NCBI GenBank assembly: GCA_018830645.1
Contig: JAHJSA010000071.1
Span: 1 to 64,000, forward strand
Source of the DNA: Actinomycetota bacterium
Lineage (GTDB): Bacteria > Actinomycetota > Thermoleophilia > RBG-16-64-13
DNA length: 64,000 bases
Direction: 5' to 3'
Positions 35,758 to 64,000 of the stretch are shown in pieces; position 1 is the stretch's first letter; each line of letters begins with the position of its first letter. The translations under genes were made by a program, and so were the position numbers. A model generated the notes under the pieces. That model was given only the letters and a program-made list of their open reading frames with translations, had not been told where the DNA came from and did no database searches.

Positions 35758-35777
35758 GATGAGATCACAGTAATCCC

Positions 35778-38787: not shown

Positions 38788-38899
38788 AGGAACACGGTCC
38801 GGTCCGGGAGACGGCTCCCCTCCTCGCTCGCTCCAGATTCCGCAGACAGCGTCTGCGCAATTCGTCTGCGCGTCATGTGGCCGGACTCGCCCCAGCCGT

Positions 38900-46996: not shown

Positions 46997-47923
46997 TCAG
47001 ACCTCCCCGGTCTTCCAGCGGGGTAGTTCGTCGACCACGGCCTCCGCGGCCTGACGGAATAGGTCACCGCGACCCTCGCCGAGCACGTCGGCCAAGGTGC
47101 GCAGCGACGACACGGTGGGCTTCCACCCGAACACCTCCATCGAGACCACCACACGCCCGGGGCTTCGCCGCCCCGCGACGGGCCGGTCGGTGTGCGCTGC
47201 GGCCACCGCGTCGAGGATGTGCTCGAGTTCCTCCGGAGGGAAGGCGCCGATCTCTCGATGGTCAACGCCGTCCACGATGCCGTGCAGGTGCACCACGCTC
47301 AGGCGACGCCCGAAGCGCTCCAGGTGCTCCTCCACGTCGCCACCGTGCATGAGCAAGTGCCCCACGTCCAAGGTGACGCCGAGATCGTGGGTGTCGAGGA
47401 GGTCGTCTACCCACTCGTAGGGGAATTGAAGGTTCTCCACCGCGAGGGGGAACTCACCCGTCTCTCGCCGGAGCCGGGCCAGGGACTCTCCAAGGGCTTC
47501 CTGCCACTGCGTATGTACCTCAGCCGGCAGTTCGTGCAGAGACTCAGGCCGCTCACCGAAAGCCGGGTGGTAGCGCAGTGGGAGCTCGGGGTGCACGACG
47601 AACGCGTGAGGCTCGAGACCGAGTGTGAGATCCACCACGCGCAGGCAGGTCTCCTGGGCCCGACGCCGGAGGTCGCGATCGTCCTCGCCGATGCCCACAT
47701 CCAAGGGTAGGTGTACCGTGAACCCGCAGGCCGAGTCGGCGCCCATGAGGCCGATGTCGCGGACATCCGCCCGAGAGGGGAGGTTCGACGCCTCGCCCTC
47801 GAAGAGGATGAGCTCGATGTCGTCGACGTACGGCGCCAGAAGCCGCACGTTCGGCAGGAGGCCGGCGGGGAGCACGTACGAGGTGGTGCCGAACAGGAGG
47901 GCGTCGAACCGGGCGTCGCTCAT
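46997..47923 (-). CDS. cbiR: Cobamide-remodelling phosphodiesterase CbiR
   Basis: 308 residues, a TIM-barrel protein of the AP-endonuclease-like fold (ADVRDIGLM, FVVHPELPLRYH, PLAVENLQFPYEW, VTLDVGHLLMHGGD, VVHLHGIVDGVDHREIGAF). These His/Asp/Glu-bearing strands correspond to metal ligands of CbiR, the enzyme that removes the lower ligand of cobamides to give cobinamide-phosphate for remodelling. It overlaps cobS by 4 bp, and CobS would attach the new lower ligand, so the pair makes sense together. Identification rests on the context plus fold motifs. Confidence 0.8.
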   Translation of the reverse strand: MSDARFDALLFGTTSYVLPAGLLPNVRLLAPYVDDIELILFEGEASNLPSRADVRDIGLMGADSACGFTVHLPLDVGIGEDDRDLRRRAQETCLRVVDLTLGLEPHAFVVHPELPLRYHPAFGERPESLHELPAEVHTQWQEALGESLARLRRETGEFPLAVENLQFPYEWVDDLLDTHDLGVTLDVGHLLMHGGDVEEHLERFGRRLSVVHLHGIVDGVDHREIGAFPPEELEHILDAVAAAHTDRPVAGRRSPGRVVVSMEVFGWKPTVSSLRTLADVLGEGRGDLFRQAAEAVVDELPRWKTGEV

Positions 47924-48816
47924 AGGGCGAGCCCCACCGATATCGCCAGCAGCGCCGCGGTGCGGGCCAGCTCCTGCGAGGCGCCGAGTACGTCGCCACC
48001 GATACCGCCGAGCAGGCGGGTCGCCGTGCGCAGGAGCCACACGGCCACTAGGAGGGCGGCGGCGGCGGCTAGGACCACGGGCAGCCAGCCGAGCCACCAT
48101 CCCGCGAGCACAACCGGCGCCGCCGCCGCCAGTCCCACCAACGCGTGTCGCGCGCCGAACCCCTCGAGGAACTGAGAACCGAGCCCACCGTGAGAGGGGC
48201 GACCCAGCCAGGCGAGCAGCAGATAGGGGAGACGCGCCGCGACCTCGGCCAGCACCACCGCCGCGGCCAGGACTCTCGACCCCGCGCCGAGCCACCCGGC
48301 GTCCGCGAAGGCTGCGGTCTGAGCGGCGATGCCCGCGAGCGCGGCGAAGCCGAGCAGGTAGGTGAAGAGCACCGCGGACACGGCGCCCACACCCGCCGAG
48401 TGATCGTGCATGACGCGTAGCCGCTTCTCGGTGTCTCCGTGCACCATGAGTCCGTCGCCGAGGTCGAGCAGCCCGTCGGTCTGATTGAAGCCGGTGAAGC
48501 CCACGACGACCAGCAGCAGCAGCGCGGCCATGGGTGTCGCCGGCAGGATGGAACCCCCTACCAGAGCGATCGCACCCGCGATCAGCCCTATGGTCCACCC
48601 CACGAGGGGCACCAGCGTGAAGGCTGCCACTACGTCTTCCAGCCGGGCCGACGCGCCCACGGGCAATCGCGAGAAGAAGCCAAGAAGCGCGCGAGGGTCG
48701 CCGGCAAGGGGGCGGCGAGCGGGATGCTGAGTCACGTCGGGGGTCGGGTGGGGGGTCGAGTGGGGGGTCGGGGGGCCGAGCTCGACGCCCTCGTCCGCTC
48801 TACGCTCTTCAGTCAC
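47920..48816 (-). CDS. cobS: Adenosylcobinamide-GDP ribazoletransferase (cobalamin synthase)
   Basis: 298 residues, membrane enzyme that joins adenosylcobinamide-GDP and alpha-ribazole (phosphate). The N-terminal FFSRLPVG and the Asp-rich catalytic segment TDGLLDLGDGLMVHG are present, with 7-8 membrane helices. GTG at 48816 has GGAGGG 8 bases upstream. The first 30 residues have a His-Pro-Thr repeat, unusual but cytosolic. ATGA overlap with cbiR. Confidence 0.95.
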   Translation of the reverse strand: MTEERRADEGVELGPPTPHSTPHPTPDVTQHPARRPLAGDPRALLGFFSRLPVGASARLEDVVAAFTLVPLVGWTIGLIAGAIALVGGSILPATPMAALLLLVVVGFTGFNQTDGLLDLGDGLMVHGDTEKRLRVMHDHSAGVGAVSAVLFTYLLGFAALAGIAAQTAAFADAGWLGAGSRVLAAAVVLAEVAARLPYLLLAWLGRPSHGGLGSQFLEGFGARHALVGLAAAAPVVLAGWWLGWLPVVLAAAAALLVAVWLLRTATRLLGGIGGDVLGASQELARTAALLAISVGLAL

Positions 48817-48997: not shown

Positions 48998-49238
48998 ATG
49001 AGAGTCACGTGGAAGGGGGCCGTGTCGTTCGGTCTCGTCACCATCCCGGTCAAGGTGTTCGGTGCCACCGAGGCCAGATCCGTGGGGTTCCATCAGCTTC
49101 ACGATGAGGATTTCGGGCGGATCCAGTACCGGCGCTTCTGCTCGGTCTGCGAGAAAGAAGTGTCCTACGAGCACATCGTCCGCGGCCACGAGCACGAGAA
49201 GGAGTCGTACGTGGTCGTCGCCGACGTGGAGCGAATCC
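48998..49238 (+). pseudogene. 5' fragment of a ku gene
   Basis: A good GGAGG-ATG start followed by about 80 residues of bacterial Ku, the DNA-end-binding protein of non-homologous end joining: MRVTWKGAVSFGLVTIPVKV, then FHQLHDEDFGRIQYRRFCSV and YVVVADVERIR. After about 49235 the similarity ends; full-length Ku is about 270 residues. The remainder is replaced by the hairpin and the cobT end. No ligD is in the window. The fragment lacks the ring-forming and dimerisation parts, so it should be non-functional. Confidence 0.8.
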
Positions 49239-49319: not shown

Positions 49320-50408
49320 TCAGGCGCCCTGGAGCATCGGGAGCACGGTGGCTTCGTAGACGTCTTCGATGCGACGCAGTAACTCGTCGGTCTCCAACCC
49401 GCCGTAGGTGAGGGCCGCCACGGCGGCGCCTCCGGCACCCACGCCCTCCTTCACCAGGCCGGCTTCGTAGATGTGCATGCCCTCGAAACGGGCCCCTCCG
49501 AAATCCAGATCGGCCGCGTACACCCGCGGGCAGCCGGCCTGCTGGGCGAGAGAGACGATGTCGGCGTCGGGGTCCCGGAGCACCCAACGCGTGGTGCCGA
49601 TACACACGTTGGTCATGTCGGCCTGACCGAGCCGGTCCATGACCGCGGCTACCGCCGCCATCTGCGTTCCGCCGGCCAGCATCACCGGGATGTGCTCCGA
49701 CGCCGCCGACGCGATGCCGGCGACGGCGGCCTGCATGGGATCGCCCACCGCCGCCACAGCGCGCAGTGGTGTGCTCTCCAGCGATCCCTTCGTGATACCC
49801 GCAGCCTTGAAGCCCAGGTCCACAGCCGCCTGCTTGAGCTCGTGCGCTCCCCCGATCATGGTGGACGAGACCTTGCCCTCCGCGTCCAGACCCAGAGCGA
49901 GCATGACACTGAGCGCCGTCGTGGTGCCGGCCGGCACCGACTCGCCCAGGATCAGGAAGTCGGTGAGCTTGGCCATGTTCGCCCCCAGATGCCACCCTCG
50001 CTCGAAGATCAGTTCCGCATCCTCGACGGCGTGACCTGTGACCACGGAGCGCGCCGGAGACCCACCCAGACGCACGTACGGCGTCTGCGGAGCGACCTCG
50101 CTCCCCGCGTCGACCACGAAGATGGGCAGCCGCATCGAGCTCAACGCGGCCATCGTGATGATCACGGGAGACGGAATACCGTCCGGCGTGGCAGCGACCC
50201 CCGGGATGCACCGCGCGCTCCCGTAGAAGAGCGCCTCCATGTCGGCCGGAGGGGTGTACTTGCGCATGTCGGCCGAAGCGCCGGCGATCGAAATGCCCTC
50301 GATGGCGCCGGTGTCGGACGAGGCGATGGTGCACATGTAGGTTGGCTGCGCGGCTTCGCGGAGCGCCCCCAGAAGTGTGTCGTCGCCTTCGATCAGGATC
50401 CTGCCCAT
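49320..50408 (-). CDS. cobT: Archaeal-type nicotinate-nucleotide phosphoribosyltransferase CobT (TIGR00303 type)
   Basis: 362 residues that activate the lower-ligand base with nicotinate mononucleotide. The sequence belongs to the TIGR00303-type family (MCTIASSDTGAIEGISIAG, GTTTALSVMLALG, PVMLAGGTQMAAVAAV), the version usual in archaea and cyanobacteria rather than the classical CobT. ATG at 50408; it overlaps the preceding gene by 16 bp. Last gene of the main cobalamin block. Confidence 0.88.
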   Translation of the reverse strand: MGRILIEGDDTLLGALREAAQPTYMCTIASSDTGAIEGISIAGASADMRKYTPPADMEALFYGSARCIPGVAATPDGIPSPVIITMAALSSMRLPIFVVDAGSEVAPQTPYVRLGGSPARSVVTGHAVEDAELIFERGWHLGANMAKLTDFLILGESVPAGTTTALSVMLALGLDAEGKVSSTMIGGAHELKQAAVDLGFKAAGITKGSLESTPLRAVAAVGDPMQAAVAGIASAASEHIPVMLAGGTQMAAVAAVMDRLGQADMTNVCIGTTRWVLRDPDADIVSLAQQAGCPRVYAADLDFGGARFEGMHIYEAGLVKEGVGAGGAAVAALTYGGLETDELLRRIEDVYEATVLPMLQGA

Positions 50409-51952
50409 GTCTCCTCCAATGCTCTCAAGATGGATTCCGTGGTTGTGTGGACAAGCCCCGCTTCCGCGGGACGCCCCACTACGAACAGTTCTGCTCCCGC
50501 GGCGCGGGCCGCGGCCAGCTTCTCTTCGAGCCCGCCCTCACGGCCGGACTCCTTACTCACGATCACGTCGCACTCGAACCGGCGCAGACACGCCAGGGTG
50601 AACGCCTCGTCGAAGGGGGGATACGCCGCGATGAGGTCGTCGGGCGCCACTCCCGCCAGGAGCGCCGCCTCCACCGAGCCGGGCGTGGGTAGAACGCGCG
50701 CGAACAGCCGGATGCCGCGACCCGAGAAATCCTGCAGGCCCTTGGAGCCCACAGTGAAGAAGGCGCGACGGCCGGTTGTGACCAGCTCGCGAGCGAGCTC
50801 GTCCGCTGTCTCGAATACGCGGACGGTGCCTGCCTGGCCACCGGGATCCCACGAAGCCCGCTCGGCCCGCACCAGTGGTACGCCGGCTGCGGCGGCCGCC
50901 GACACGGCCGTGCGGCTGGCCTCGACGGCGTACGGATGGGTGGCATCGACGAGCGCTCCCGCGCCCCAGGATGCGATCTCCCGCACCAACCCCGGCGTCC
51001 CCAGCCTGCCGACCCGCACGCCTCCCGCGGGCTCCCGCTCCACTTCGGCGGCGCCGAGCGGGGTCGCCACAGAGAGACGCACCTGGTACCCGGCGTCCTC
51101 GAGGTCGACCGCCAGCCGCCGGGCGAAGCCGGTGCCGCCCAGCATGTAGAGGCGGCGGGGGCCGGGGCGGGCGGCGGCCTCGGTGGCACTCTCCGCAGCC
51201 GCGGCGGGGGCTTCGTCCGGGCTGTCGACACCGTATCGTTCGGCGTACCCTCGCCTCGTGACCAGTCTGCCACCCAGCATCTCAGTGCGGCTGGACCCGA
51301 TGATCACCACCGACCACATATCGATCGGCTCGTCGGCGAGGGCGCCCAGCGTGGTGAAGTGCACCTCCTCCTCGGGACGGTAGGCGTTGCGCACCCAGCC
51401 CACGGGAGTCTCCGCGGGCCTCCGTCCGAGGAACAGACGCACCACCTCCTCGAACAGCGGACGCCTGCGCCGAGAGGTGGGGTTGTAGAGGCATGTGACA
51501 AGGTCGGCCCCGGCGGCCACGTCGGCGCGGCGCAGCACCTCGCTGCGGGGGGTCAGCAGGTCGCTCAAGCTGAGGACGATGAAGTCGTTCATCAGGGGAG
51601 CCCCCAGGCGCGCCGCGGCCGCCTGGGCGGCGGTGATGCCCGGCACCACGCGCACGTCGGCGGTGGGGTCGATCTCCATGAGGAGCCCGGCCATGCCGTA
51701 CACTCCGGCGTCACCGCTGGACACCACCACCACGGCCCGGCCTTCACGATGCAGTTCCAGGGCCCGGCGGCAGCGGTCGACCTCCTGCCGCATGCCCGAA
51801 CTCTCCATGACAGCATCGGGGCCGAGCACGTGCGCGATCATCTCGACGTAGGGACGGTACCCCACAACGACGTCTGCCGCCCGCAGCACCTCCGCCGCTT
51901 CCTCCGTGAGGGCGGCGGTCGCCCCCGGTCCGATGCCCACGGCAGCTATCAC
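50393..51952 (-). CDS. cobJ-cobK: CobJ/CbiH-CobK/CbiJ fusion (C17-methyltransferase and precorrin-6A reductase)
   Basis: 519 residues with two enzymes. Residues about 1-240 are the precorrin-3B / cobalt-factor III C17-methyltransferase (VGIGPGATAALTEEA, VSSGDAGVYGMAGLL, CLYNPTSRRR). A Pro/Ala-rich linker follows, then about 255 residues of precorrin-6A reductase (YMLGGTGFARRLA, ALVDATHPYAVEAS, FFTVGSKGLQDF). GTG at 51952 overlaps the cbiG stop (GTGA). The fusion joins two non-consecutive steps of ring contraction. Confidence 0.92.
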   Translation of the reverse strand: MIAAVGIGPGATAALTEEAAEVLRAADVVVGYRPYVEMIAHVLGPDAVMESSGMRQEVDRCRRALELHREGRAVVVVSSGDAGVYGMAGLLMEIDPTADVRVVPGITAAQAAAARLGAPLMNDFIVLSLSDLLTPRSEVLRRADVAAGADLVTCLYNPTSRRRRPLFEEVVRLFLGRRPAETPVGWVRNAYRPEEEVHFTTLGALADEPIDMWSVVIIGSSRTEMLGGRLVTRRGYAERYGVDSPDEAPAAAAESATEAAARPGPRRLYMLGGTGFARRLAVDLEDAGYQVRLSVATPLGAAEVEREPAGGVRVGRLGTPGLVREIASWGAGALVDATHPYAVEASRTAVSAAAAAGVPLVRAERASWDPGGQAGTVRVFETADELARELVTTGRRAFFTVGSKGLQDFSGRGIRLFARVLPTPGSVEAALLAGVAPDDLIAAYPPFDEAFTLACLRRFECDVIVSKESGREGGLEEKLAAARAAGAELFVVGRPAEAGLVHTTTESILRALEETWAGS

Positions 51953-53277
51953 AGCGCCCACCTCTCTTCTCGTGCGGCCACCACTGCTTCGCCGCCCATG
52001 CGGGCGAGTGCGACGGTGATACCGTCCCGTGCGATCTTGTGCTGCACCAGGACAGCGCCCGGACCCGCGGCCCAGAGGGCCGCCGGCTCCGATGCGGCGC
52101 CCACACCGATGCTCTTTCTCACCCAGTCGCTCTCGGCCAAGCCGTAGGCCACGATCTGGGCCTCCACCTGCTCGTCGTCGGCGAAGACCAGGGGCACCCC
52201 GAGTTCCCCGGCGGCCTCCTCAAGCCCGGGTTCGTCCGACTTGGCCCGCACCGACGCCAAGGCGCGCAATGACTCCGCCCGCAGGCCCGCCGACTCGAGC
52301 GCTTCGCGCACGGCTCCGACGAGGGCGGCGGCCGGCGTGCCCCGCGTGCACCCCACCCCAGCCACGATCCATCTGGGGATGAGCCGCAACACTACCTCCG
52401 ACTCGGGCTGCGCTGACGCGCCGATGTTCCCCGCGGCACTCACGACGACGGCGACCTCCGACCGGTCTCCTGCTTCGTGGGACGGCGGGACGACACGATC
52501 CACAACGCCGATGGCCCGGAGGCGGTACCCGGCGAGGTCGCTGAGGAAGGCCGTCGCGCCCCCCACCTCCGCCGGATCGACCCACAGGTCGACCGGCCGA
52601 CCGGAAGCCAGCGCCGCCGAAGCCGGCAGAAGAGCGGCCGCGTCCTCGACGCGGGCATCGAGAGCCACGGCAAGAAGATCCGGGCCGAGGAGACCTTGGA
52701 CGTCAGTCGATGTGGTCAGCACCGCCTGCGCGCCTAGAGTCCCGGCGATGCGCCGAGCAAGTGCGTTCGCGCCACCCACGTGACCCGAGAGCAGGGGCAC
52801 CACGAACCGCCCTAGTTCGTCCACCACGATCACGGCCGGGTCTTCCAGCTTGCTGCGCAAGACGGGAGCGAGCGAGCGAACCACGACTCCTGTCGCCATC
52901 ACGCAGACGAGGGCGGTTCCCGCCCGGAACTCACGCTGGAGCGCGGCCGCGACGCCGGTGAAACCGGCGACGGCCGGACCGGGAGCGGCGGAGGGACGGG
53001 GGGCAGGGGCGGCCGGACGGTGCGTGCCGCCACCCGCGGCGAGAAGCCTCTCCGGCAGGTGAAGGCCGCCGCCCACGGCCGAGACGATGCGCTCCGCGGT
53101 GCGTGCTCCGCCCGGAGTCAGCGCGAACACCGCGATCGACCCCGCCGGCCGGGGGTCGGCCGCCGGGTTCAGCACGCGGTCGGACGCCGGGCCCGGCGCC
53201 GAGTCTGGGGCGTTGTCGGGCGCGTTCTCGGGTGCCCTGTCGGGCGCCGCGTCGGAGTGCGGGGGTCGTTCAGTCAT
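51949..53277 (-). CDS. cbiG: Cobalt-precorrin-5A hydrolase CbiG
   Basis: 442 residues. After a Pro/Ala/Asp N-terminal repeat (DRAPENAPDNAPDSAPGP) come the CbiG N-domain (FALTPGGARTAERI), the middle domain with VPLLSGHVGGANALAR, and the C-terminal domain with VAGVGCTRGTP. It opens the delta-lactone ring, a step found only in the anaerobic pathway. ATG at 53277 with GGGGAG upstream overlaps cobM by 8 bp. Confidence 0.94.
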   Translation of the reverse strand: MTERPPHSDAAPDRAPENAPDNAPDSAPGPASDRVLNPAADPRPAGSIAVFALTPGGARTAERIVSAVGGGLHLPERLLAAGGGTHRPAAPAPRPSAAPGPAVAGFTGVAAALQREFRAGTALVCVMATGVVVRSLAPVLRSKLEDPAVIVVDELGRFVVPLLSGHVGGANALARRIAGTLGAQAVLTTSTDVQGLLGPDLLAVALDARVEDAAALLPASAALASGRPVDLWVDPAEVGGATAFLSDLAGYRLRAIGVVDRVVPPSHEAGDRSEVAVVVSAAGNIGASAQPESEVVLRLIPRWIVAGVGCTRGTPAAALVGAVREALESAGLRAESLRALASVRAKSDEPGLEEAAGELGVPLVFADDEQVEAQIVAYGLAESDWVRKSIGVGAASEPAALWAAGPGAVLVQHKIARDGITVALARMGGEAVVAAREERWAL

Positions 53278-54073
53278 CCGCTCCCCGCGTGTCGTCGAGG
53301 TGCGCCGACGCGCCGGAGGCGCGTCGGTAGCCGTGCGAGAACCCTGGGTCGTAGAGCTTTGATCGTTCGCCGGCTTCGGCCAGCACGTCACCCACTACGA
53401 TCATGGCGGTCTTCTCGATACCCGCTTCGGTGACCTTCTGGGCGATGTCGCTCAGCGTGCCCCGCACGATCCGCTGTTCCGGCCAGGTGGCGTTCGCCAC
53501 CACTGCCGCAGCCGTGCTCTGCGGGTAGTGCACCAGCAGGTCGTCGACGACCTCACCGATGCCACCCACGCTGAGGAAGATGCACATGGTGGCCGCATGG
53601 GACGCCAATGAGGAGAGGTCCTGTCCGGCCGGCACGGGGGTGCGACCCGCGCGACGCGTGAGGATGACCGTCTGGGAGAGGCCCGGCCGCGTGAGTTCCG
53701 CCTGCAGAACCGCCGCACTGGCCGCGAACGAACTCACTCCCGGCACCACCGCATGGGGCACACCGACCGCATCAAGTTCGTCGATCTGCTCCGCGATGGC
53801 GCCGTACAGCGAGGGGTCGCCGGTGTGGAGCCGCACCACCGACCGTCCCGCCCGGTAGCCCTCCACCATGATCTCCACGATGCGGGGCAGATCGAGCGCC
53901 GCCGAATCGTGGATCTCGATACCCTCTCGACAATGGCCGAGAAGCGCCGGATGCACCAGCGACCCGGCCCACACCACCACATCGGCCTCCGCCAGCGCGC
54001 GAGCGCCTCGCAGGGTAATCAGCTCCGGATCTCCCGGCCCGGCTCCGACGAAGAGTACCGGCGCGCCGCTCAT
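53270..54073 (-). CDS. cobM: Precorrin-4/cobalt-precorrin-4 C11-methyltransferase
   Basis: 267 residues, SAM-dependent tetrapyrrole methylase (VGAGPGDPELITLRGARAL, GDPSLYGAI, MCIFLSVGGIGEVVDDL). Called CbiF in the anaerobic pathway. ATGA overlap with the upstream cobI; overlaps cbiG by 8 bp. Confidence 0.95.
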   Translation of the reverse strand: MSGAPVLFVGAGPGDPELITLRGARALAEADVVVWAGSLVHPALLGHCREGIEIHDSAALDLPRIVEIMVEGYRAGRSVVRLHTGDPSLYGAIAEQIDELDAVGVPHAVVPGVSSFAASAAVLQAELTRPGLSQTVILTRRAGRTPVPAGQDLSSLASHAATMCIFLSVGGIGEVVDDLLVHYPQSTAAAVVANATWPEQRIVRGTLSDIAQKVTEAGIEKTAMIVVGDVLAEAGERSKLYDPGFSHGYRRASGASAHLDDTRGADD

Positions 54074-54813
54074 GCGCCCTCACCTTCCTTCCCACTTCGA
54101 TCGAGCGCGCGGCCCGGCGCCAGCACCGTCACCACGCTGAAATACGGCAGTGCGGTCAGCGTGTCCACCGAGCCGGCCGGATAGACCCGCTGACCCGGCA
54201 GGGTGACGTCCTCGAGCACCCAGGCTCGTCCGAGAGCGCCGGCCCGCGCGAGCAGCGCGGCGCCCTCAGCTCTGAGGCGCGACGGCTTCATGATCACCAC
54301 GGTGCCCCCGAGTGCCAGGGCGCCCTCCAGTAGAGCCAGATCCCCCCCGTCGGGCACGATGGTGAGGGGCTCGCGTCCTTCGACCAGCGGTATCTTCAGC
54401 GCAGCCGCCGCTGCCACTGGAGAGATCACCCCCGGCACGACGTTCACGGGGCCCGAGTACCTGCTGAGGAGGTAGCCGAAGCTGCCGTACAGAAGAGCGT
54501 CACCCAGACAGATGTAGGCGACGTCGCGGCCCGCTTCGGTCACCCGTGAGATCACCGAGACAGCAGCGTCCCAGGCTTCGGTCAGAGCGTCCGAGTCGGT
54601 CGTCATGGGCATGTGGAGAGGTAGGCTCTCCACGTCGGCGTCCAGATAGCCCTCCGCGATGCGGAAGGCGCGGCCCGGCCCGCCGTCGGCATCCAGCGGA
54701 TAGGCCACCACGGGGCCCGAGCGCAGGATCTCCACCGCCCGCATCGTCACGAGCCCGGGGTCCCCCGGGCCGAGGCCCAATGCGTAGAGCGTCCCTGTGC
54801 GGGAGTCCGTCAC
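54070..54813 (-). CDS. cobI: Precorrin-2/cobalt-factor II C20-methyltransferase
   Basis: 247 residues with the methylase fold (YALGLGPGDPGLVTMRAVEI, CLGDALLYGSFGYLL, VPGVISPVAAAAAL). GTG at 54813 overlaps the cbiET stop (GTGA). In an anaerobic pathway this is CbiL. Confidence 0.94.
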   Translation of the reverse strand: MTDSRTGTLYALGLGPGDPGLVTMRAVEILRSGPVVAYPLDADGGPGRAFRIAEGYLDADVESLPLHMPMTTDSDALTEAWDAAVSVISRVTEAGRDVAYICLGDALLYGSFGYLLSRYSGPVNVVPGVISPVAAAAALKIPLVEGREPLTIVPDGGDLALLEGALALGGTVVIMKPSRLRAEGAALLARAGALGRAWVLEDVTLPGQRVYPAGSVDTLTALPYFSVVTVLAPGRALDRSGKEGEGA

Positions 54814-56090
54814 GGTCGATCCTCCTTGTCGGCCCACACGATCGTCACGGGGTTCGCCCCGCGCATGATCCCGGCCTTCTCCAGATGTGCGGTCGCCAGC
54901 TGTACTGCGTCGAGTCCCATCCACGGCTCCCACGAGAGCAAGGAGGCCGCGTTCCCGGCGGTCTCCAGAGTCACCGCCGTCACGATGACGCGCCCGCCCG
55001 GCTTGATGCAGCCGGCCACGGCAGTCAGGATCTCCTCCAATCGTCCGCCGGAGCCACCGATCACCACCAAGTCGGGTCGCGTCTCGTCGCCAGAGCAGGG
55101 AAGCGCATCGGGGGCCGTCCCCTCGACCACCTCCACCCGAGCCCCGAAGTGCTGAGCGTTCCTGCGGATCGCCTCGCACCCCGCGGATCCCCGCTCGAAC
55201 GCGATCACGCGCGCGTCCGGGGAGAGGAGTGCGAGTTCGACGGAGAATCCACCGCTGCCCGCGCCCACGTCCCAGATCACACGCCGTGAGGCGGGGCGCG
55301 CGACCGAAGCAAGCACCGAGCGCACCTCCCACCGTGAGAGCGGCACCTGCTCGAGTCGCTCGAACTCCTCGTCTGCGATGCCCGGGGCCACGGCGCCGGA
55401 AGGAGCCGAGCCTGCGGCCGGATCGTCGCGCCGGGCGGCGAAAGGCCGGTTGCCCTCGCGGAGCCACGCGTCAGGAGCGACGATCATCACTGCGGGAGAG
55501 CCGAAGGCGCCTGCCGCGATCGCGGGGAGATCGCCCACGGTCACACTCTCGTGCGGGCCTCCCAAGCCTACACCAACCGCCGCCTGCGCCTGCCACCCCA
55601 CATCGAGGAGCAGCGAGGCCACGGCCTCGGGAGTGTTGTCGCCGCCGCAGAGCACGGCGATGGGGCGGTCGGTGAAGTCGGGGGCCTCAAGCGCGCGCCC
55701 GTGCACCGACGTGTGCGTCAACTCCTGCCAGGCAAGCCCCAGCCTGGCGGCCAGCAGCTGAGTGGACGATACGCCCGGCTCCACCACCGCCTCCCCCGGG
55801 AAGCGACGCTCCAGCGCCGCCAACATGCCGAAGTACCCCGGATCGCCGGAGGTGAGCACGCACACGCGCTTCCCTTGCTCGAGGAGAAGGCCCACGCGGT
55901 CGAGCACGGAGTCGAGCGGGCCAGAGATCTCCACCCGCTCGCCCCAAGCCGGCGCCGCGCGAAGCGCGGCCGCTCCGCCCACGAAAGCCTCACACGATCT
56001 CGCCAGACGCGCCGCGGCAGGCGTGAGGTACTCCCGCTCCGCCGGCCCGACTCCCACCACCAGCAGACGACCGCGTTCCACCATGCTCAT
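54810..56090 (-). CDS. cbiET: CbiE-CbiT fusion, C5,15-methyltransferase and decarboxylase
   Basis: 426 residues. The CbiE part is at about 1-205 (LVVGVGPAEREYLTPAA, TSGDPGYFGMLAALE) and the CbiT Rossmann methyltransferase at about 245-426 (IWDVGAGSGGFSVELAL, PDLVVIGGSGGRLEEIL). It methylates C5 and C15 and decarboxylates the acetate side chain, like CobL. ATGA overlap with cbiD; a second ATG six bases on is an alternative start. Confidence 0.95.
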   Translation of the reverse strand: MSMVERGRLLVVGVGPAEREYLTPAAARLARSCEAFVGGAAALRAAPAWGERVEISGPLDSVLDRVGLLLEQGKRVCVLTSGDPGYFGMLAALERRFPGEAVVEPGVSSTQLLAARLGLAWQELTHTSVHGRALEAPDFTDRPIAVLCGGDNTPEAVASLLLDVGWQAQAAVGVGLGGPHESVTVGDLPAIAAGAFGSPAVMIVAPDAWLREGNRPFAARRDDPAAGSAPSGAVAPGIADEEFERLEQVPLSRWEVRSVLASVARPASRRVIWDVGAGSGGFSVELALLSPDARVIAFERGSAGCEAIRRNAQHFGARVEVVEGTAPDALPCSGDETRPDLVVIGGSGGRLEEILTAVAGCIKPGGRVIVTAVTLETAGNAASLLSWEPWMGLDAVQLATAHLEKAGIMRGANPVTIVWADKEDRP

Positions 56091-57154
56091 CCCTCCCCCA
56101 GAACGACGCCGGCGCGATCGAGCAGCACCACACGCACCGGCAGACCGTAGCGCTCGCGACAGGCGAGGGCAGCCGCCTCAGCGACCGCCGAGAGCACGTC
56201 GGCTCGGCCGAGTTCGTTCAGTCTCGCGGCGGCGAAGTCGGCCGTGGTCATGGCCAGCATGCCGCGGATCTCCTCGGGAGCCACGCCGCCCGCGCCCGCA
56301 TAGGCGGCCAAGGTGACCAGGCGAGCGTCGGCCACCCGCGAGTGCGTGTCGAAGATGCCCGCGGCCAGTTTCACCAGCTTGCCCACGTGGCCGCGCACGG
56401 TCACGCCCGCGAAGCCGCGGTCCGCGGCCCTCTCGAGCATCCACCCCACTTCGTTGGCCACCTCGACCACATCGCGCGGGTCGGCGCCCGCCGCTTCGGC
56501 GAGGCGGCGTCCCTTCGAACCCAACACGAAGACAAGGGTCGACCGACCCCGAGCCTCGGCCACGTCCAGCTGGGGGACCAGGGAATCGCGCATGGCCTCG
56601 ACCGACCAGGGCTCTACCCTGCCGGTGGTGCCCAGGATGCTGACGCCCCCCACGATGCCCAGCCGCGGGTTCAGCGTGCGCCGGGCGAGTTCCTCGCCGC
56701 CCGGGGCCAGGATAGTGGCGGTGGCCCCGGCCGGACGGCCGCGGCGCAACTCGTCGAGGATGGCGTCCCGCGGTGCCGGGTTGATGGCGGGCGCGCCCGG
56801 CTCGATGGCCAGCCCGGGCAGCGTCACCACACCCACGCCCTCTCCGGCCTTGACCGCATGAACGCCCGGTGTGCTCTCGACGTAGGCGCCTATCGCCAGA
56901 CCGTGCGTGACATCGGGGTCGTCGCCCGCGTCCTTCACCACCCAGACCACGCCGTCTTCCTCCCGGCGGAACGGAAGCAGCGCGGTCTCGCCCCCGGGAA
57001 GAGTCACTTCGACGCTGCCTTCGCCGGGCGCGCCGCCGATCAGGGCGGCGGTGACCGCCGCCTGCGCGCAGGCGCCGGTGGTATACCCGCGGCGAAGGGC
57101 GGTGGTCGCCTCGTTCTTGTCGGGCGCGTCGGCAGGGGCGGCAGAGGTCGTCAC
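56087..57154 (-). CDS. cbiD: Cobalt-precorrin-5B C1-methyltransferase CbiD
   Basis: 355 residues with the CbiD signatures LRRGYTTGACAQAAVTAAL, LGIVGGVSILGTTGRVEPWS and GHVGKLVKLAAG. CbiD is specific to the anaerobic route. GTG at 57154 overlaps the cbiO stop (GTGA). Confidence 0.95.
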   Translation of the reverse strand: MTTSAAPADAPDKNEATTALRRGYTTGACAQAAVTAALIGGAPGEGSVEVTLPGGETALLPFRREEDGVVWVVKDAGDDPDVTHGLAIGAYVESTPGVHAVKAGEGVGVVTLPGLAIEPGAPAINPAPRDAILDELRRGRPAGATATILAPGGEELARRTLNPRLGIVGGVSILGTTGRVEPWSVEAMRDSLVPQLDVAEARGRSTLVFVLGSKGRRLAEAAGADPRDVVEVANEVGWMLERAADRGFAGVTVRGHVGKLVKLAAGIFDTHSRVADARLVTLAAYAGAGGVAPEEIRGMLAMTTADFAAARLNELGRADVLSAVAEAAALACRERYGLPVRVVLLDRAGVVLGEG

Positions 57155-58056
57155 GCCGCGCCCCCTCGTTCCTTCGGGAGCAGGATCGGCACCAGGTCGA
57201 GGCGGCCCTGTTCCACCATACGCACCAGTTCCTTCCGTGCCTGGCCCACGGTCAGCGGACGAGTGCTCTCGTCGCAGAAGATGTCGAACAGATAGGCGAT
57301 CCTGGGCAACCGCAGATCGCACCCCTCGAGGTGGGTGCCCTCCGCGAACACCTCCGCCAACGGCCCTTCCGCCGCGACATGACCGCCGCGGAGAAGGATG
57401 ATGCGGTGCGCGTACAGCGGGATCAGATCGACGTCGTGGGTGGCCATGATCACGGTGAGACCTCGTTCGTTCAGCCCCTTCAAGAGGCGCATGAGGGCCG
57501 CCTCGGCCATGGGGTCGAGACTCGAGGAGGGTTCGTCGAGAACCAGCGCGCGCGGACCCATGGCCAAGACCCCGGCGAGCGCGACCCGCTTCTTCTGCCC
57601 GTAGCTCAGGGCGTGGATGGGCCGGTCGAGCAGCTCGAACACGCCGCACGTCTTCGCCGACCACTCCACCCGCCGCTCCACTTCGGCGCCCCCAAGCCCG
57701 AGATTCTCCGGGCCGTAGGCGATGTCCGCGGCCACCGTGGGACAGAACAGCTGGTCGTTCGGGTCCTGGAAGAGGTACCCCACCATGGCCGCAACCTGGT
57801 TGAAGGTGTCGTGACCCACCTCGACGTCGTCGACCGACACGCGCCCTTCGCTGGGATGCAGCAGGCCCACGAGCAACTTGAGCATGGTCGATTTCCCGCC
57901 GCCGTTGGCACCCATGACCGCGGTGAAGTCGCCCGACCGGATGGTGATGTCGACGCCGTCGAGGGCTCTCACGCCCCCGGGGTAGACGAAGCCCGTGTGG
58001 GCGAAGGTCACCGTCGATCCGTCGATACTAGAGCCTCCCCAGGGGCTGTTCATCAT
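57151..58056 (-). CDS. cbiO: Cobalt ECF transporter ATPase CbiO
   Basis: 301 residues. Walker A GANGGGKST, Q-loop FQDPNDQ, signature LSYGQKKR, Walker B ALVLDEPSSSLDP and switch His MATHDVD. A C-terminal extension of about 60 residues follows. It powers the transporter formed with the fused CbiMNQ next to it; ATGA overlap. Confidence 0.95.
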   Translation of the reverse strand: MMNSPWGGSSIDGSTVTFAHTGFVYPGGVRALDGVDITIRSGDFTAVMGANGGGKSTMLKLLVGLLHPSEGRVSVDDVEVGHDTFNQVAAMVGYLFQDPNDQLFCPTVAADIAYGPENLGLGGAEVERRVEWSAKTCGVFELLDRPIHALSYGQKKRVALAGVLAMGPRALVLDEPSSSLDPMAEAALMRLLKGLNERGLTVIMATHDVDLIPLYAHRIILLRGGHVAAEGPLAEVFAEGTHLEGCDLRLPRIAYLFDIFCDESTRPLTVGQARKELVRMVEQGRLDLVPILLPKERGGAA

Positions 58057-60134
58057 GGTCGCCGCTCACCTCCACGAAGCCGCTGGGCGTCGTACACCCG
58101 CTGCGATCGATCGTAGGACCGGATCAGGAGGTTGGCGCCCAAGCTGTTGAAGCCACCCATGGCACGCCGCCAGGGCACTTCGGGCCCCCGGAGACGTTGC
58201 GCTTGGCGCATCCGCTGCGCCTCCTCCACGAACAAGAACAGGTAGCGGTACATCAACATGCCGAGGTCGATGAGCAGACCGGGCACCCTGTACCAGCGGA
58301 GCGCTCCCAGCAGCGCGGGGAGCGGAGTGCTCAGGCCGAGGAGCAGGAGTAGGGAGACGCCCGCGAGCACAACCGCGGCAAGATCGAATCCCGCCGCCAG
58401 CCCTTCGCTGCTCACCACCACCGGCGCGAGACGCGGCAGATCGATCAAGATCACAGGCTGCCCCGGGATCGTGAGCCCCCGAAGCACCACCAGCATCACG
58501 CCCACCACCAGGGCAGGAAGCATCCGCAACACCAGTGCGATCCACCGCACGCGCACCACCGCCAGGAGAACCGCCAGGCAAACGGCCAGAAGAAGCAGAG
58601 AGAACCCTTGGCCGGCCACGAGGTTCACGCCGAGGAGGACCGCGCCCACAGCCAGCTTCACCCGAGCGTCGATGGCAGAGAGGACCGTGGTCTTCCACGC
58701 CTGACGATCGCCGGCACGTACGTCGTGGGAACCGTGCAGACGCGGCAGGCGCAGGCGCGGACGGCCGCCGGCGAACCGCTTCGAAGCCGACCAGCCGGCA
58801 GCCACTCCCAAGACCAGACCGGCGACCGTGAACGCGAAGAGCACGGCGTCACCACCGCGGGCGCTCAGCACCTGCTCGCCGGAGGGATCGGCGATGACCC
58901 GAGCGACCGTCCTCAGATGCGCGCCGTCGAGCGGGCCCAGCGAAAGACCCGGGGCGAGCCAGCCCCAGAGGACCAGCACGACGAGCACTCCACCCACCAG
59001 CCCCCAGATCCCGCGCCGCCACCGCCCAGAGGCACGCGCGGTGGAGTCGTCGCGCGCCGCGCCGCTCCCCACAGAGCCCCCCACGCCGCCCCCCGCATGG
59101 CTCCCCGCATGGCCCCCCGACGCAGAAGCGCGCCCCGAGGGGCTCCGCGCGCGCATCCCCTGCACAACCCATCCCACGGCCGCCCCCGCAGCGACGGCGC
59201 CGCCGAAGAACATGAAGAGGAGAAGGTCGCCCACGTCGGTGTTGATGAACGGCGTCCATGCCGCCCTGCCCCTCTCCTCGGCCACCCGCTCCATGATCCC
59301 TGCATCGATGCCCACCCAGTCGCCCGTGGTGAGGGCGATGGCCCAGAGCAGGCCGCCCAGCGACACCACGGCCACGAGCACGGCCAGCCCGACGATCGCC
59401 ACACGCACGCCCCGGCTCCCGCGCCTCCAGTGATGCCGTATCCGGCCGTCACGCGGGGCGGGCGGAACTGCATCGCCCCGGCCCAGGCCCAAGCCGCGCG
59501 CTATGTCGGGTCTGAGCTCGGCGAGGGACCGCAGCACCCCGCCCGTGAACACTCCTTCGAGCACGGCGAGGGGGAGCTGTGTGGGTAGGAAGGCGAGGAA
59601 GAGCGCCCCGCCTCCGCGTAACGACCCGCTCCACGGGAAGAGCCCCAGGCCCAGCTCGAACGCCGTGGCCAGATAGACGGCGAGGTCGCCGAACATCCCC
59701 GCGAGGAACCCGGCGCGAAAGAGCGAAGCTCCACAACGACGCGCCAGCCAGAAGGAGGCGAAACCCACGAAGGACCCCGCTATGCCTTCCGAGACGATAT
59801 TGGCGCCCAGGGTGGTGAGTCCCCCGTGGGCGAAGAAGAGGGCTTGGATGAGGAGGGCAAGGCCCGCGAGCACCACCGACGCCCACGGGCCCACCACAAT
59901 AGCCGCGAGCGGCGTCCCCGCCGGGTGCGACACGGAGCCCGCCACCGGCACCGGGATGGGCATGAGGCTGATCGCAAAGACAGCCGCGCCCATCAAGGCC
60001 ACCAACGACTTGAACGAAGGGTCGGCGACGGTGCGCTTCTTGAGCCGGCTCAGCCCCACGGCGACAGCGACCGCAGCCGGCGCCGCCCACGCCACCGCCC
60101 ACTCTGCGGGGAGTATGCCCTCGGCTATGTGCAC
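58053..60134 (-). CDS. cbiMNQ: CbiM-CbiN-CbiQ fusion, cobalt ECF transporter core
   Basis: 693 residues uniting subunits that are usually separate. Residues 1-220 are CbiM: the start MHIAEGILP has the His2 that binds Co2+ through the free N-terminus. Residues about 240-330 are a CbiN/PDGLE-like segment (GIDAGIMERVAEERG), followed by a Gly/Ser/Ala linker and a second similar unit at about 375-455 (PLDGAHLRTVARV). Residues 480-693 are the CbiQ transmembrane T-component (AIDARVKLAVGAVLLGVN, with the coupling motifs AQRMRQAQRLRG and YDAQRLRG). Two CbiN-like segments in one chain are unusual. It overlaps cbiX-cbiC by 10 bp. Confidence 0.92.
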   Translation of the reverse strand: MHIAEGILPAEWAVAWAAPAAVAVAVGLSRLKKRTVADPSFKSLVALMGAAVFAISLMPIPVPVAGSVSHPAGTPLAAIVVGPWASVVLAGLALLIQALFFAHGGLTTLGANIVSEGIAGSFVGFASFWLARRCGASLFRAGFLAGMFGDLAVYLATAFELGLGLFPWSGSLRGGGALFLAFLPTQLPLAVLEGVFTGGVLRSLAELRPDIARGLGLGRGDAVPPAPRDGRIRHHWRRGSRGVRVAIVGLAVLVAVVSLGGLLWAIALTTGDWVGIDAGIMERVAEERGRAAWTPFINTDVGDLLLFMFFGGAVAAGAAVGWVVQGMRARSPSGRASASGGHAGSHAGGGVGGSVGSGAARDDSTARASGRWRRGIWGLVGGVLVVLVLWGWLAPGLSLGPLDGAHLRTVARVIADPSGEQVLSARGGDAVLFAFTVAGLVLGVAAGWSASKRFAGGRPRLRLPRLHGSHDVRAGDRQAWKTTVLSAIDARVKLAVGAVLLGVNLVAGQGFSLLLLAVCLAVLLAVVRVRWIALVLRMLPALVVGVMLVVLRGLTIPGQPVILIDLPRLAPVVVSSEGLAAGFDLAAVVLAGVSLLLLLGLSTPLPALLGALRWYRVPGLLIDLGMLMYRYLFLFVEEAQRMRQAQRLRGPEVPWRRAMGGFNSLGANLLIRSYDRSQRVYDAQRLRGGERRP

Positions 60135-61342
60135 GGAGTTCCTCGTTCGACGCCGGCGCCGGTTCTCTCCGCGCGCGGCGATCCCGCGAACACCGAGGCG
60201 TCCGGCGCGGCCAGACGAGCCAGGGCATTGGTGGCCGCCACCGCGATGGGAGTGCCCCCACGGAGCCCCGGCAGAGTGATGTGCGCGAGCGGCGAGGCCA
60301 TCAGTGCGTCCTTGGACTCCGCGGCTGCCACGAACCCCACGGGCACGGCCACGACCAAGGCCGGGCGCACACCCTCTTCACGCTCCAGGCGCACGATCTC
60401 CAGCAGGGCGGTCGGTGCGTTCCCGATCACGACCACGGCACCGTCGAGCGACTCACGCATGGCGCGCAGAGCGGCCGCCGACCGGGTGATCCCCTCGGCC
60501 GAGGCCACCTCGGCGGCTCCAGCCGTGTCCACCAGACAGTCCACCGAGATACCGAGACGGCGCAGGCTCGGCACCAGCCCCGACTTCACCATGTTCACGT
60601 CGCACACCACCGGCGCACCGTCACGAAGGGCCCGGAGCCCCTGCTCGACGGCGCCCGCCGAGAAGACAAGCTGAGAAGCGAGACTGGGATCGCCCGTGGC
60701 GTGCACAACACGCACCACGACCGCGCGTTCATCCGCGGTCAACGGCAACTCCGGCAGTAACCCCTCGATGATCTCGAAGCTCTTGCCCTCGATCTCCGCA
60801 GGGCTGTTTACCGAGGACGCCGCCACGGCACCTTCCTCGCCGCGAGCTCCGCGCACCCGAGACTCGAGAACCGAGACCAGCCGCAGGTCGAGACCCAGGG
60901 GGCCGGTGAGGCGAACACTCAGATCCGGGTGCGCCGTGAGCACCGACTCGAGTTGCTCCGGGATGTCCAGCACCACGTGATTCCCAGCGAACAGCAGGTA
61001 GGGCGCAACCAGGATATCCCGGAAACCCTGCCCGTAGAGGGAGACGACGGCCTCGGTGAGACTCGGCTTGTTGAACCCGAGGGACGCGTGGACGACGGTC
61101 CAACCCGTCTGGAGCGCGAGCAGCGACGCTGCCTTCTGAAGCACCTCGAGCGCGGCGGGGTTACGACTGCCGTGGCCCAGCACCACGACCGCCCAGGGGA
61201 CGGACCCGGTGAGTGGCCCGGGCGCCGATCGCGCGCGAGACGCCGCTCCGGCGAGTGGGGCCGCTCCGGCGAGTGGGGCGGTCGCTGATCCGACTTCTGC
61301 CGATCCCGAACCTTCCGGGCGGGGAACGCGGTCGTCATGCAT
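60125..61342 (-). CDS. cbiX-cbiC: CbiX-CbiC fusion, cobaltochelatase and precorrin-8 methylmutase
   Basis: 405 residues. After a Gly/Ser/Ala-rich N-terminus with a perfect duplication (APLAGAAPLAGA), CbiX lies at about 50-160 (VLGHGSRNPAALE, metal-site His in FAGNHVVLDIP). CbiC lies at about 185-380 (FEIIEGLLPELPL, catalytic His in VRVVHATGDPS, CDVNMVKSG). The protein performs the first and one of the last ring steps: cobalt insertion into sirohydrochlorin and the methyl shift to cobyrinate. ATG at 61342 overlaps cbiA by 8 bp. Confidence 0.93.
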   Translation of the reverse strand: MHDDRVPRPEGSGSAEVGSATAPLAGAAPLAGAASRARSAPGPLTGSVPWAVVVLGHGSRNPAALEVLQKAASLLALQTGWTVVHASLGFNKPSLTEAVVSLYGQGFRDILVAPYLLFAGNHVVLDIPEQLESVLTAHPDLSVRLTGPLGLDLRLVSVLESRVRGARGEEGAVAASSVNSPAEIEGKSFEIIEGLLPELPLTADERAVVVRVVHATGDPSLASQLVFSAGAVEQGLRALRDGAPVVCDVNMVKSGLVPSLRRLGISVDCLVDTAGAAEVASAEGITRSAAALRAMRESLDGAVVVIGNAPTALLEIVRLEREEGVRPALVVAVPVGFVAAAESKDALMASPLAHITLPGLRGGTPIAVAATNALARLAAPDASVFAGSPRAERTGAGVERGTPCT

Positions 61343-62843
61343 GGGTGTGGTCCTCCTGTGATGTGACGCCCAAGGCCAGCCAGCGTGCCATGCGCCGGCT
61401 GCCCCGGAAGTGAAGATGTACGTAGCTGGCCACGAGGTGGTCGTCGGCATAGCCGTCGGCTAGGGTCTCGCCCTTGCGGCTGACCTCGTAGGCTGGGTGC
61501 TCAGAGCCGGTCGTGGCCGAGTAGTGGAACAGGTGCCCGCGGAAGCCGGCCCCTGAAAGGGGGTGGCGTTCGCAGGCCGTGGCCTCCACGTAGCCCATGC
61601 GAAGGCGGGCGCCGGACATGGAGGCGCGGGTCGGGAGGACGCCGGCCATGGTGTGCACGCCGTCTCCGTTCTCGATCTCTCGCCCGAGGTAGAGATAGCC
61701 TCCGCACTCTGCGTAGACCCGCACGCCGGCGGCTATGGCCGCGCTGAGGTCGCGCCCCAAGCCAGAGTTCGCGGCCAACTCGGCCGCGTAGACCTCGGGG
61801 TATCCTCCGCCCAGATAGACGGCGTCGCACCCTGAGGGGAGCCTGTCACCGGCAACCGGGCTGAAGAAGTGCAACTCAGCGCCCTCTTCCTCGAGCACAT
61901 CGAAGTTGTCCTGGTAGTAGAAGGAGAAGGCGCCGTCTCGGGCGATCGCCACGCGGGATCGCGGCTCGGCTCCAGAGTGACGGTTCGATCGGGGCGCATC
62001 CCTCATCCCGCCCGACCCTGGATCCACCGGGGCTGCCCCGGTGAGCAGGCTGTCGAGATCCACGTGCTCCTCCACGTGATCGATTATGCGCTCCAACACG
62101 TCGGCTACGCCTCGGTCTTCCACCGTGGGGATCAGGCCCAAGTGCCGCGACTCGAGGTGCAGGGCCGACCTCCTGGGCACGATGCCGAGGACGGGAGGCG
62201 GCGAGGCCAACTCTGCAAGGGCCTCCTCGACCATCCGCCCGTGGCCGGGTCCGGCCACCTTGTTCAGGATCACGCCCGCGATCAACAGGTCGGGGTCGAA
62301 CGTACGGAACCCGTGGACGACGGCGGCCGCGCTTCGAGCGGTATGCGAGCAGTCGATCACCAAGACGACCGGAAGCCCGAGGAGCTTGGCCATCTCACCG
62401 GTGGAGCACCGCTCTCCGCCGCCCGCCAGACCGTCGAACAACCCCATCACGCCTTCGACCACGGCGACGAGACCCAGTGCGTGGGTCGACGAAACGGCGC
62501 CCGGTCTGCCTGTCGTCGAGGGCCCACCCAGCGGCGGCGCCTGAACGATCTCCGCGCGATTCGCCTGCGTCTGGGCTCCCGCGGCCTCCCGGGCAACCCT
62601 CGCCACGGACCGCTCGAACACAGCGACCGCCTCATCCGGCTCCATGAGCCAGGTGTCGAGGTTGTGCGAGGGGCGCCCGCACACGCTCGCGTGGTAGGTC
62701 GGATCGATGTAGTCGGGGCCCACTTTGAACGGCGCCACGACGTGCCCGCGCCGCGCCAGGGCGCCCATTATCCCCAGGGCCAGGCTGGTCTTCCCCACCC
62801 CGCTGCGGGTGCCGGCGAGCACGAATCCCGAGGGGGCGATCAC
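61335..62843 (-). CDS. cbiA: Cobyrinate a,c-diamide synthase
   Basis: 502 residues. The N-terminal ATP domain has AGTRSGVGKTSLALG, PDYIDPTYHASVCGRPSHNLD and VVEGVMGLFDG. The C-terminal glutamine amidotransferase domain has the nucleophile Cys in YAECGGYLYLG and the terminal His in YVHLHF. GTG at 62843 overlaps the cobD stop (GTGA). Confidence 0.95.
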   Translation of the reverse strand: MIAPSGFVLAGTRSGVGKTSLALGIMGALARRGHVVAPFKVGPDYIDPTYHASVCGRPSHNLDTWLMEPDEAVAVFERSVARVAREAAGAQTQANRAEIVQAPPLGGPSTTGRPGAVSSTHALGLVAVVEGVMGLFDGLAGGGERCSTGEMAKLLGLPVVLVIDCSHTARSAAAVVHGFRTFDPDLLIAGVILNKVAGPGHGRMVEEALAELASPPPVLGIVPRRSALHLESRHLGLIPTVEDRGVADVLERIIDHVEEHVDLDSLLTGAAPVDPGSGGMRDAPRSNRHSGAEPRSRVAIARDGAFSFYYQDNFDVLEEEGAELHFFSPVAGDRLPSGCDAVYLGGGYPEVYAAELAANSGLGRDLSAAIAAGVRVYAECGGYLYLGREIENGDGVHTMAGVLPTRASMSGARLRMGYVEATACERHPLSGAGFRGHLFHYSATTGSEHPAYEVSRKGETLADGYADDHLVASYVHLHFRGSRRMARWLALGVTSQEDHTHA

Positions 62844-64000
62844 GAGGCGGCTCCAATCCCCAACGAACAGTCCGTTGCGACGGACGCACCGGCGAAGGCG
62901 TCGGCCGCGATCCCCGCCAGTACCTCGGCCAGAGCCTTGATGAGGCGGTCGTTGTCGGCCGGCTCTCGAACGGCGACTCTGAGGAAGCGGGCGCCCATGC
63001 CGGGGAAGTCGGTGAGGTCGCGTACCAGGATGCCGTGCTGCTGCCGAAGGCGCCCGGCCACCTCGCGCGCGCCCGGTGCGGCGAGGCGCAGACACAAGAA
63101 GTTGGCGGCTGCGGGCAACACCCTGGCCACGCCGGGGATGCCGCGCAGACGGGCGATGGCGGCGATCCGGGCCTCGGTCACCGCGGGGGGTGTTCGTTCC
63201 AGAAGCTCCACGTCCTCCAGCCCGGCGACGGCCGCCGCCTGAGCGATGCAGTTCACATTCCAGGGCGGCACCCGCGGCAGGAATCCGTCAGCGAGGGCCT
63301 CCGGAAGTACGAGCGCTCCCACCCGGAGACCGGGCATCGTGAGGATCTTGGTCAGGGAGTGCAGCACTATCACCTGCTCGCTGGATCCCTCGGAAGAAGA
63401 GACGGAGCGACGCAGCACGGCGCCCCCCGGCCAGACCTCGGTGAAAGCGAGGAACGACTCGTCCACGAACACCGCGGTGCCCGCCCGGGCGCAGATCGAG
63501 ATGAGCGTATCGCGGGCGCGGCGATCCCAGAGGTCGCCCGTGGGATTGTTGGGATCGCAGATGAAGACGAGATCGGCCGCGGCCAGCCGTGGTGCCAGAG
63601 CCTCGATGTGCTCTTCGGAGAAGGCGAAATCGCGCTCCTCGGGGGCGAAGACGAGATCGACTTCGGCGCCCCAGGCGCGGGCCGCCCGCTCGTACTCCGT
63701 GAACGTGGGGCCGAGTACGACAACGCGGCGCGGTCGGAGATGCGCCACCGTGAGGAAGATGAGTTCGGAGGCACCGTTACCCAGGGCAACCCGTTCCTGC
63801 GGCACCCCGAGAAAACCGGCGGCGGCGCGGCGAAGAGGGTCCGGGGGATCAAGGGGATACCATCCCATCTCGCCCACAGCCCGCCGCGCCGCCGCCACCA
63901 CCCGGGGGGAAGGGCCCAGGAAGTTCACGTTCGCCGAGAAGTCCAGGAGTTCGTCGCCCGGGATGCCGAGCGCCGTCGCCGCCTCGCGGATCTTTCCGCC
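62840..64000 (-). CDS. cobD: L-threonine-O-3-phosphate decarboxylase, partial
   Basis: The 5' end is outside the window; 386 residues are visible. PLP fold type I: the visible start GGKIREAATALGIPGDELLD leads into FSANVNFLGPSP, then GNGASELIFL, CDPNNPTGDLW, and the PLP Lys in LHSLTKILTMPG. It makes (R)-1-aminopropan-2-ol phosphate for the nucleotide loop. The class also contains histidinol-phosphate aminotransferases; context decides. Confidence 0.92.
   Translation of the reverse strand, partial: GGKIREAATALGIPGDELLDFSANVNFLGPSPRVVAAARRAVGEMGWYPLDPPDPLRRAAAGFLGVPQERVALGNGASELIFLTVAHLRPRRVVVLGPTFTEYERAARAWGAEVDLVFAPEERDFAFSEEHIEALAPRLAAADLVFICDPNNPTGDLWDRRARDTLISICARAGTAVFVDESFLAFTEVWPGGAVLRRSVSSSEGSSEQVIVLHSLTKILTMPGLRVGALVLPEALADGFLPRVPPWNVNCIAQAAAVAGLEDVELLERTPPAVTEARIAAIARLRGIPGVARVLPAAANFLCLRLAAPGAREVAGRLRQQHGILVRDLTDFPGMGARFLRVAVREPADNDRLIKALAEVLAGIAADAFAGASVATDCSLGIGAAS

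Follow-up and report, generated by a model that had tools for sequence, protein, structure and literature searches.

A cobS-cbiR pair of an uncultured actinobacterium, read as the end module of its anaerobic cobamide operon

The closest described counterpart of the locus analysed here is CbiR of Akkermansia muciniphila (Amuc_1679; Mok et al. 2020, PMC7733943), which converts AdoCbl to AdoCbi-P and alpha-ribazole; the enzyme is promiscuous, which raises the question of how the cell's own cobamide is spared (PMC7733943). A CbiR is expected to be sensitive to EDTA and to oxygen. In the published survey, 80% of CbiR homologues are encoded beside cobamide genes, and CbiR occurs alongside de novo synthesis in 26 Akkermansia strains (PMC7733943). 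CbiZ, known from Rhodobacter sphaeroides and others, is likewise a remodelling enzyme found in predicted de novo producers (PMC6461909), but it belongs to another protein family and cuts the amide next to the aminopropanol, whereas CbiR cuts the phosphoribosyl bond (PMC7733943). Given the Akkermansia strains (PMC7733943) and the presence of the unrelated CbiZ in predicted cobamide producers (PMC6461909), CbiR in a de novo producer is not unusual as such; the enzyme and its pairing with CobS are already known, and its location beside cobamide genes is the rule. The CobS of Vibrio cholerae can itself act in remodelling (cited in PMC7733943), whereas the present locus has a separate CbiR, together with a CobS of a divergent subclade. 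Like the Akkermansia enzyme, its CbiR belongs to the NF041277 family and to the AP endonuclease 2 superfamily, has the conserved His, Asp and Glu residues, and is encoded among late-step cobamide genes with cobS. The A. muciniphila type strain, however, is a salvager that makes pseudo-B12, whereas the pair described here is read as ending a complete cbi operon in a member of the Actinomycetota whose genome probably encodes a benzimidazole pathway at another site. The locus thereby adds to the family an Actinomycetota CbiR with a complete operon.

The window (the whole stretch of 64,000 nucleotides that was analysed) carries the pair and a neighbouring gene remnant as follows.

46997..47923, minus strand: cbiR, 308 aa, homologue of the cobamide-remodelling phosphodiesterase, a TIM barrel of the AP endonuclease 2 superfamily (NF041277, tree, AlphaFold2 model, invariant residues)
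47920..48816, minus strand: cobS, GTG start, 298 aa, adenosylcobinamide-GDP ribazoletransferase of a divergent subclade (TIGR00317, CobS tree)
48998..49231, plus strand: 5' remnant of ku, 78 aa matching Ku, its frame continuing to 49411 without homology (TIGR02772, 93 bits, profile positions 1-77 of 259)

The two genes adjoin in the same direction, giving CbiR the cobamide synthesis neighbour expected of it, and overlap by 4 bp, as an earlier note on this DNA had described with exact coordinates; the shared bases read tcat on the plus strand and ATGA on the coding strand. The note's naming of the two products also stands. The CbiR frame scores 207.7 bits against NF041277, twice the curated cut-off of 105, and in a tree that included 24 AP endonuclease 2 superfamily proteins scoring under that cut-off, the 19 CbiR candidates formed one clade with branch support of 100/99, apart from all 24. 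On this score and tree we reject membership in another TIM-barrel family, which the earlier note had named as a refuting outcome; the predicted structure also speaks against it. Amuc_1679 is not in the tree; the tie of the window's CbiR family to the A. muciniphila enzyme runs through the NCBIfam model rather than a direct sequence comparison. Nine residues (H71, H111, E163, D186, H212, H214, D221, H222 and E263) are invariant among 17 homologues, and H189 is present in all but one. By comparison with endonuclease IV, we take these conserved His, Asp and Glu residues, whose numbering is not mapped to that of the A. muciniphila protein, to be positions of the kinds that bind metal. Such residues matter in CbiR (Mok et al., PMC7733943).

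An AlphaFold2 model of the protein is a TIM barrel (mean pLDDT 88.4, pTM 0.89), and its PDB matches in a structure search are barrels of the superfamily, namely isomerases, epimerases and endonuclease IV (5zhz). Such matches are to be expected, since no solved CbiR structure was found by sequence search, the nearest by profile being MJ1311 (3wqo). They would also suit a different AP endonuclease 2 superfamily enzyme, whether a sugar isomerase or epimerase or an endonuclease, that lies near cobamide genes by chance, as would the Pfam match, which reaches the general xylose-isomerase-like TIM barrel only (AP_endonuc_2, 34.5 against a cut-off of 31.1). We regard this as highly improbable in view of the equivalog model matched at twice its cut-off, the single clade (100/99) apart from 24 paralogues, and the occurrence of CbiR next to CobS in genomes from several phyla. 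The partner, CobS, scores 134 bits against TIGR00317 (cut-off 110) and 126 against PF02654 (cut-off 23), and its DGLLDLGDG in the alignment matches the DGxxDxxDG-type motif. It is the single CobS of the genome and falls in a divergent subclade of the CobS tree.

Upstream of the pair lie the genes of an anaerobic de novo pathway.

49320..50408, minus strand: cobT, archaeal/cyanobacterial type (TIGR00303, 363 bits, cut-off 240)
50393..51961, minus strand: cbiH-cbiJ fusion (TIGR01466 and TIGR00715, above cut-off)
51949..53277, minus strand, start approximate: cbiG, cobalt-precorrin-5A hydrolase (Pfam CbiG_N and CbiG_C)
53270..54073, minus strand: cbiF, cobalt-precorrin-4 methyltransferase (TIGR01465, 327 bits)
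54070..54774, minus strand, start approximate: cbiL, C20 methyltransferase (TIGR01467, 185 bits, cut-off 163)
54810..56090, minus strand: cbiE-cbiT fusion (TIGR02467 and TIGR02469, above cut-off)
56087..57154, minus strand, start approximate: cbiD, marker of the anaerobic route (TIGR00312, 323 bits, cut-off 200)
57151..58056, minus strand: cbiO, cobalt ECF transporter ATPase (TIGR01166, 205 bits, slightly below the cut-off of 211.8; best match PRK13636)
58053..60134, minus strand: cbiM...Q fusion, cobalt ECF transporter (NF006184 and TIGR02454, above cut-off)
60125..61450, minus strand: cbiX-cbiC fusion, cobaltochelatase and precorrin-8 methylmutase (methylmutase models and bifunctional PRK05782 over the length, below cut-offs)
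61335..62843, minus strand, start approximate: cbiA, cobyrinate a,c-diamide synthase (NF002204, 477 bits, cut-off 254)
62840..64000, minus strand, frame open at the window edge: cobD-like threonine-phosphate decarboxylase (best model TIGR01140, 227 bits, cut-off 290)

The operon continues past the window edge, where CbiB, CbiP and CobU are encoded, and its cobalamin riboswitch lies upstream of cobU (115 bits, contig position 67436-67612), outside the window; none was found within the 64 kb. The models for the CobD and CbiX-C domains matched below their own cut-offs, yet in the expected place and order. With CbiD, CbiG, the full ring set, a CbiX-type chelatase, CbiA/P/B and CobD/U/T/S all found, the anaerobic pathway is, as predicted from its genes, complete from sirohydrochlorin onward, in keeping with the de novo route that had been proposed for this DNA. 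A cobamide user, the class II B12-dependent ribonucleotide reductase, is encoded outside the operon at 13288..15609 on the minus strand (NF006417, 1197 bits, cut-off 961).

The pair had also been said to follow the ring-synthesis genes. It does lie downstream of the operon, but the ku remnant at 48998-49231 parts cobT from cobS, so that there is no contact between them in the window. In another member of the family (G402), however, cobT, cobS and cbiR are contiguous, with a gap of 15 bp between cobT and cobS; we therefore read cobS-cbiR as the end module of the complete anaerobic cobamide operon of this uncultured actinobacterium, which ku would have interrupted later, in the genus to which the window belongs. 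The ATGA overlap of cobS and cbiR is seen in genus g1 and in a further family genome (G404), and the two genes are neighbours in Actinomycetes LH_M24, Thermoleophilia FR_37, Actinomycetes LH_M23 and Actinomycetota Soudan_30, all MAGs, which hold the nearest named loci to the window (CbiR 92% in LH_M24). A relative (L037) has an intact ku of 283 aa in the same place, in a region where some 665 bp correspond to about 82 bp of the window; the truncation may be a real deletion or an assembly error. The position of ku between cobT and cobS in the window's genus, together with its truncation in the window, might suggest a pair in decay: ku and a deletion would have broken the operon, and cobS-cbiR would have ceased to be expressed as part of it. 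This seems to us hardly credible, as both frames are intact, with 86-93% identity to L037, and the pathway needs the only CobS that the genome has.

The earlier note had suggested that an organism keeping CbiR beside a de novo pathway probably must have a particular lower ligand, or else repairs cobamides, whether its own or scavenged ones. No BluB above the model cut-off was found in the genome, on which ground aerobic DMB synthesis is rejected. The genome's only ThiC-like gene follows a cobalamin riboswitch within about 120 bases, and heads the following group on another contig.

L083 1823-12383 (contig C14): Bza-like operon, in order cobalamin riboswitch, ThiC-like gene, ABC transporter, CobT, methyltransferase with a DUF2284-like tail, BzaD-like gene, second radical SAM gene (B12-type)

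Its CobT (L083 6396-7637) is of the Salmonella type (TIGR03160, 423 bits), so that the genome holds two different CobTs, the one in the cbi operon being of the archaeal/cyanobacterial type (TIGR00303). The group resembles described bza operons (PMC6461909) in that a cobalamin riboswitch precedes genes for a ThiC-like protein, a CobT, a methyltransferase and a BzaD-like radical SAM protein, but differs in falling below the BzaB and BzaD cut-offs, in containing an ABC transporter, and in lying on a different contig from the cbi operon. The Bza models TIGR04386 and TIGR04385 gave 534 bits (cut-off 700) and 376 bits (cut-off 450), respectively, BzaD being the best model for the BzaD-like protein (376 bits, cut-off 450), and there was no match to the BzaF or BzaC model. 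A cobalamin riboswitch with a ThiC-like gene occurs in four CbiR-bearing genomes, the window's included; the ABC transporter, CobT and methyltransferase follow in three of these, and the BzaD-like and second radical SAM genes are confirmed in two. The ThiC proteins of three CbiR-free relatives, by comparison, are 44-49% identical and are encoded among other thiamine-type genes, with a TPP riboswitch ahead in two. Set against that thiamine-type context, the cobalamin riboswitch, cobT and radical SAM genes make it unlikely that the ThiC-like gene, although ThiC is its NCBIfam name, is an ordinary thiamine gene. The group is thus a probable anaerobic benzimidazole operon, which could reach 5,6-dimethylbenzimidazole if its last gene acts as BzaE, following the scheme of PMC6461909, and this riboswitch-controlled operon probably makes a benzimidazole that the cell uses as its own base. 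The predicted operon tells which kind of native lower ligand to expect. Two other genomes (G044 and G251) have the pair and lack a ThiC/BzaF-like gene, so the pair is not tied to such an operon.

Behind another cobalamin riboswitch lie BtuF-, BtuC- and BtuD-like genes, which matched the respective models below cut-off and suggest a system for uptake of outside corrinoids. A need for a particular lower ligand is made plausible by this importer and the benzimidazole-type operon, both under cobalamin riboswitches, and goes no further than plausible. Also elsewhere in the genome are another set of CbiM/Q-like cobalt transporter genes, which has a strong cobalamin riboswitch to itself (L084 11822-13945, contig C12), and an MtrH-family corrinoid methyltransferase gene (L086 8942-12208) downstream of a borderline one (31.8 bits, gathering score 31.5).

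In our preferred reading, which we consider probable though by no means secure, foreign or wrongly assembled lower ligands are exchanged by CbiR and CobS for the benzimidazole that the cell makes itself. The activities, substrate source and base that we infer for the pair would form the following cycle. A cobamide with the wrong ligand would be imported by the BtuFCD-like system or mis-assembled at home; CbiR would cut its phosphoribosyl bond, yielding AdoCbi-phosphate and an alpha-riboside; CobU, of the same operon, would convert AdoCbi-phosphate to AdoCbi-GDP; CobT would activate the cell's own base, probably benzimidazole from the Bza-like operon; and CobS, presumably co-translated with CbiR, would join AdoCbi-GDP to the activated base. 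A CbiR as promiscuous as that of A. muciniphila would cut the cell's native cobamide as well, a futile-cycle problem that we count against this reading, along with the two genomes that have the pair and no ThiC/BzaF-like gene and the matches below cut-off to the BzaD, BzaB and BtuF/C/D models.

The co-occurrence of cbiR with cbiD, raised earlier as a matter for survey, bears on which of these substrate sources predominates. Among 18 genomes of the window's family, with CbiR scored over the model cut-off, CbiR is present in seven, cbiD in six and CobS in 12. All six cbiD-bearing genomes carry CbiR, and cbiD occurs in none of the 11 genomes without it; the CobS-bearing genomes comprise the seven with CbiR and five that lack both CbiR and cbiD. 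The one-sided exact probability of six in six is 7/18564, or about 4 in 10,000, a figure that ignores the kinship of the family members. What is new is that, within this family, CbiR goes with de novo synthesis and not with scavenging: de novo relatives all have it, and relatives with CobS only mostly do not. The exception is G405 (76% complete), with CbiR and CobS (L091 3-1516) and no cbiD detected. In the respective trees its CbiR and its CobS fall beside the two proteins of a Chloroflexi pair (L048) and away from those of the de novo genomes, which suggests that cobS and cbiR were gained together on at least two occasions.

This distribution invites an explanation in which CbiR serves editing or quality control within de novo synthesis, and not chiefly salvage, by removing bases wrongly attached by the cell's own CobT and CobS or by recycling damaged cobamide. 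Besides the association with cbiD in all six genomes, and the absence of CbiR from the five with CobS and no cbiD, its position at the end of a biosynthetic operon and the two different CobTs would accord with such a role. We nevertheless think it unlikely. The riboswitch-controlled corrinoid importer suggests uptake as well; the association takes no account of relatedness within the family; G405 has CbiR and no detected cbiD; and elsewhere in the phylum, where 397 genomes were sampled, cbiD is present in 80 and CbiR in three, all three with cbiD, so that 77 of the 80 cbiD-bearing genomes lack CbiR and de novo synthesis evidently does not need it. A narrower form, restricted to the family, holds CbiR to be a fixed part of de novo synthesis there, accompanied by a divergent CobS inherited along with it, and an editing enzyme enforcing one lower ligand rather than chiefly a salvage enzyme; this we offer very tentatively, as a doubtful proposal. 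Were editing the true role, CbiR would be absent from most salvagers of the family. Whichever holds, the contrast within the family makes editing versus scavenging, and the sparing of its own cobamide by a cell with a promiscuous CbiR, testable within one lineage.

Via individual loci, 13 CbiR-bearing genomes were reached. Four carry cbiD, namely FR_37 (the family member G404) and three Desulfonatronospira, and cbiD was found in none of the eight from Chloroflexi, which are MAGs, so that these absences are soft. Within the window, at some distance from the pair, translations point to a type I restriction-modification-like cluster with interspersed ATP-binding regulator-like genes (30936-41296), and a transposase-like ORF, IS1634-like by eye, occupies 27783-28997.
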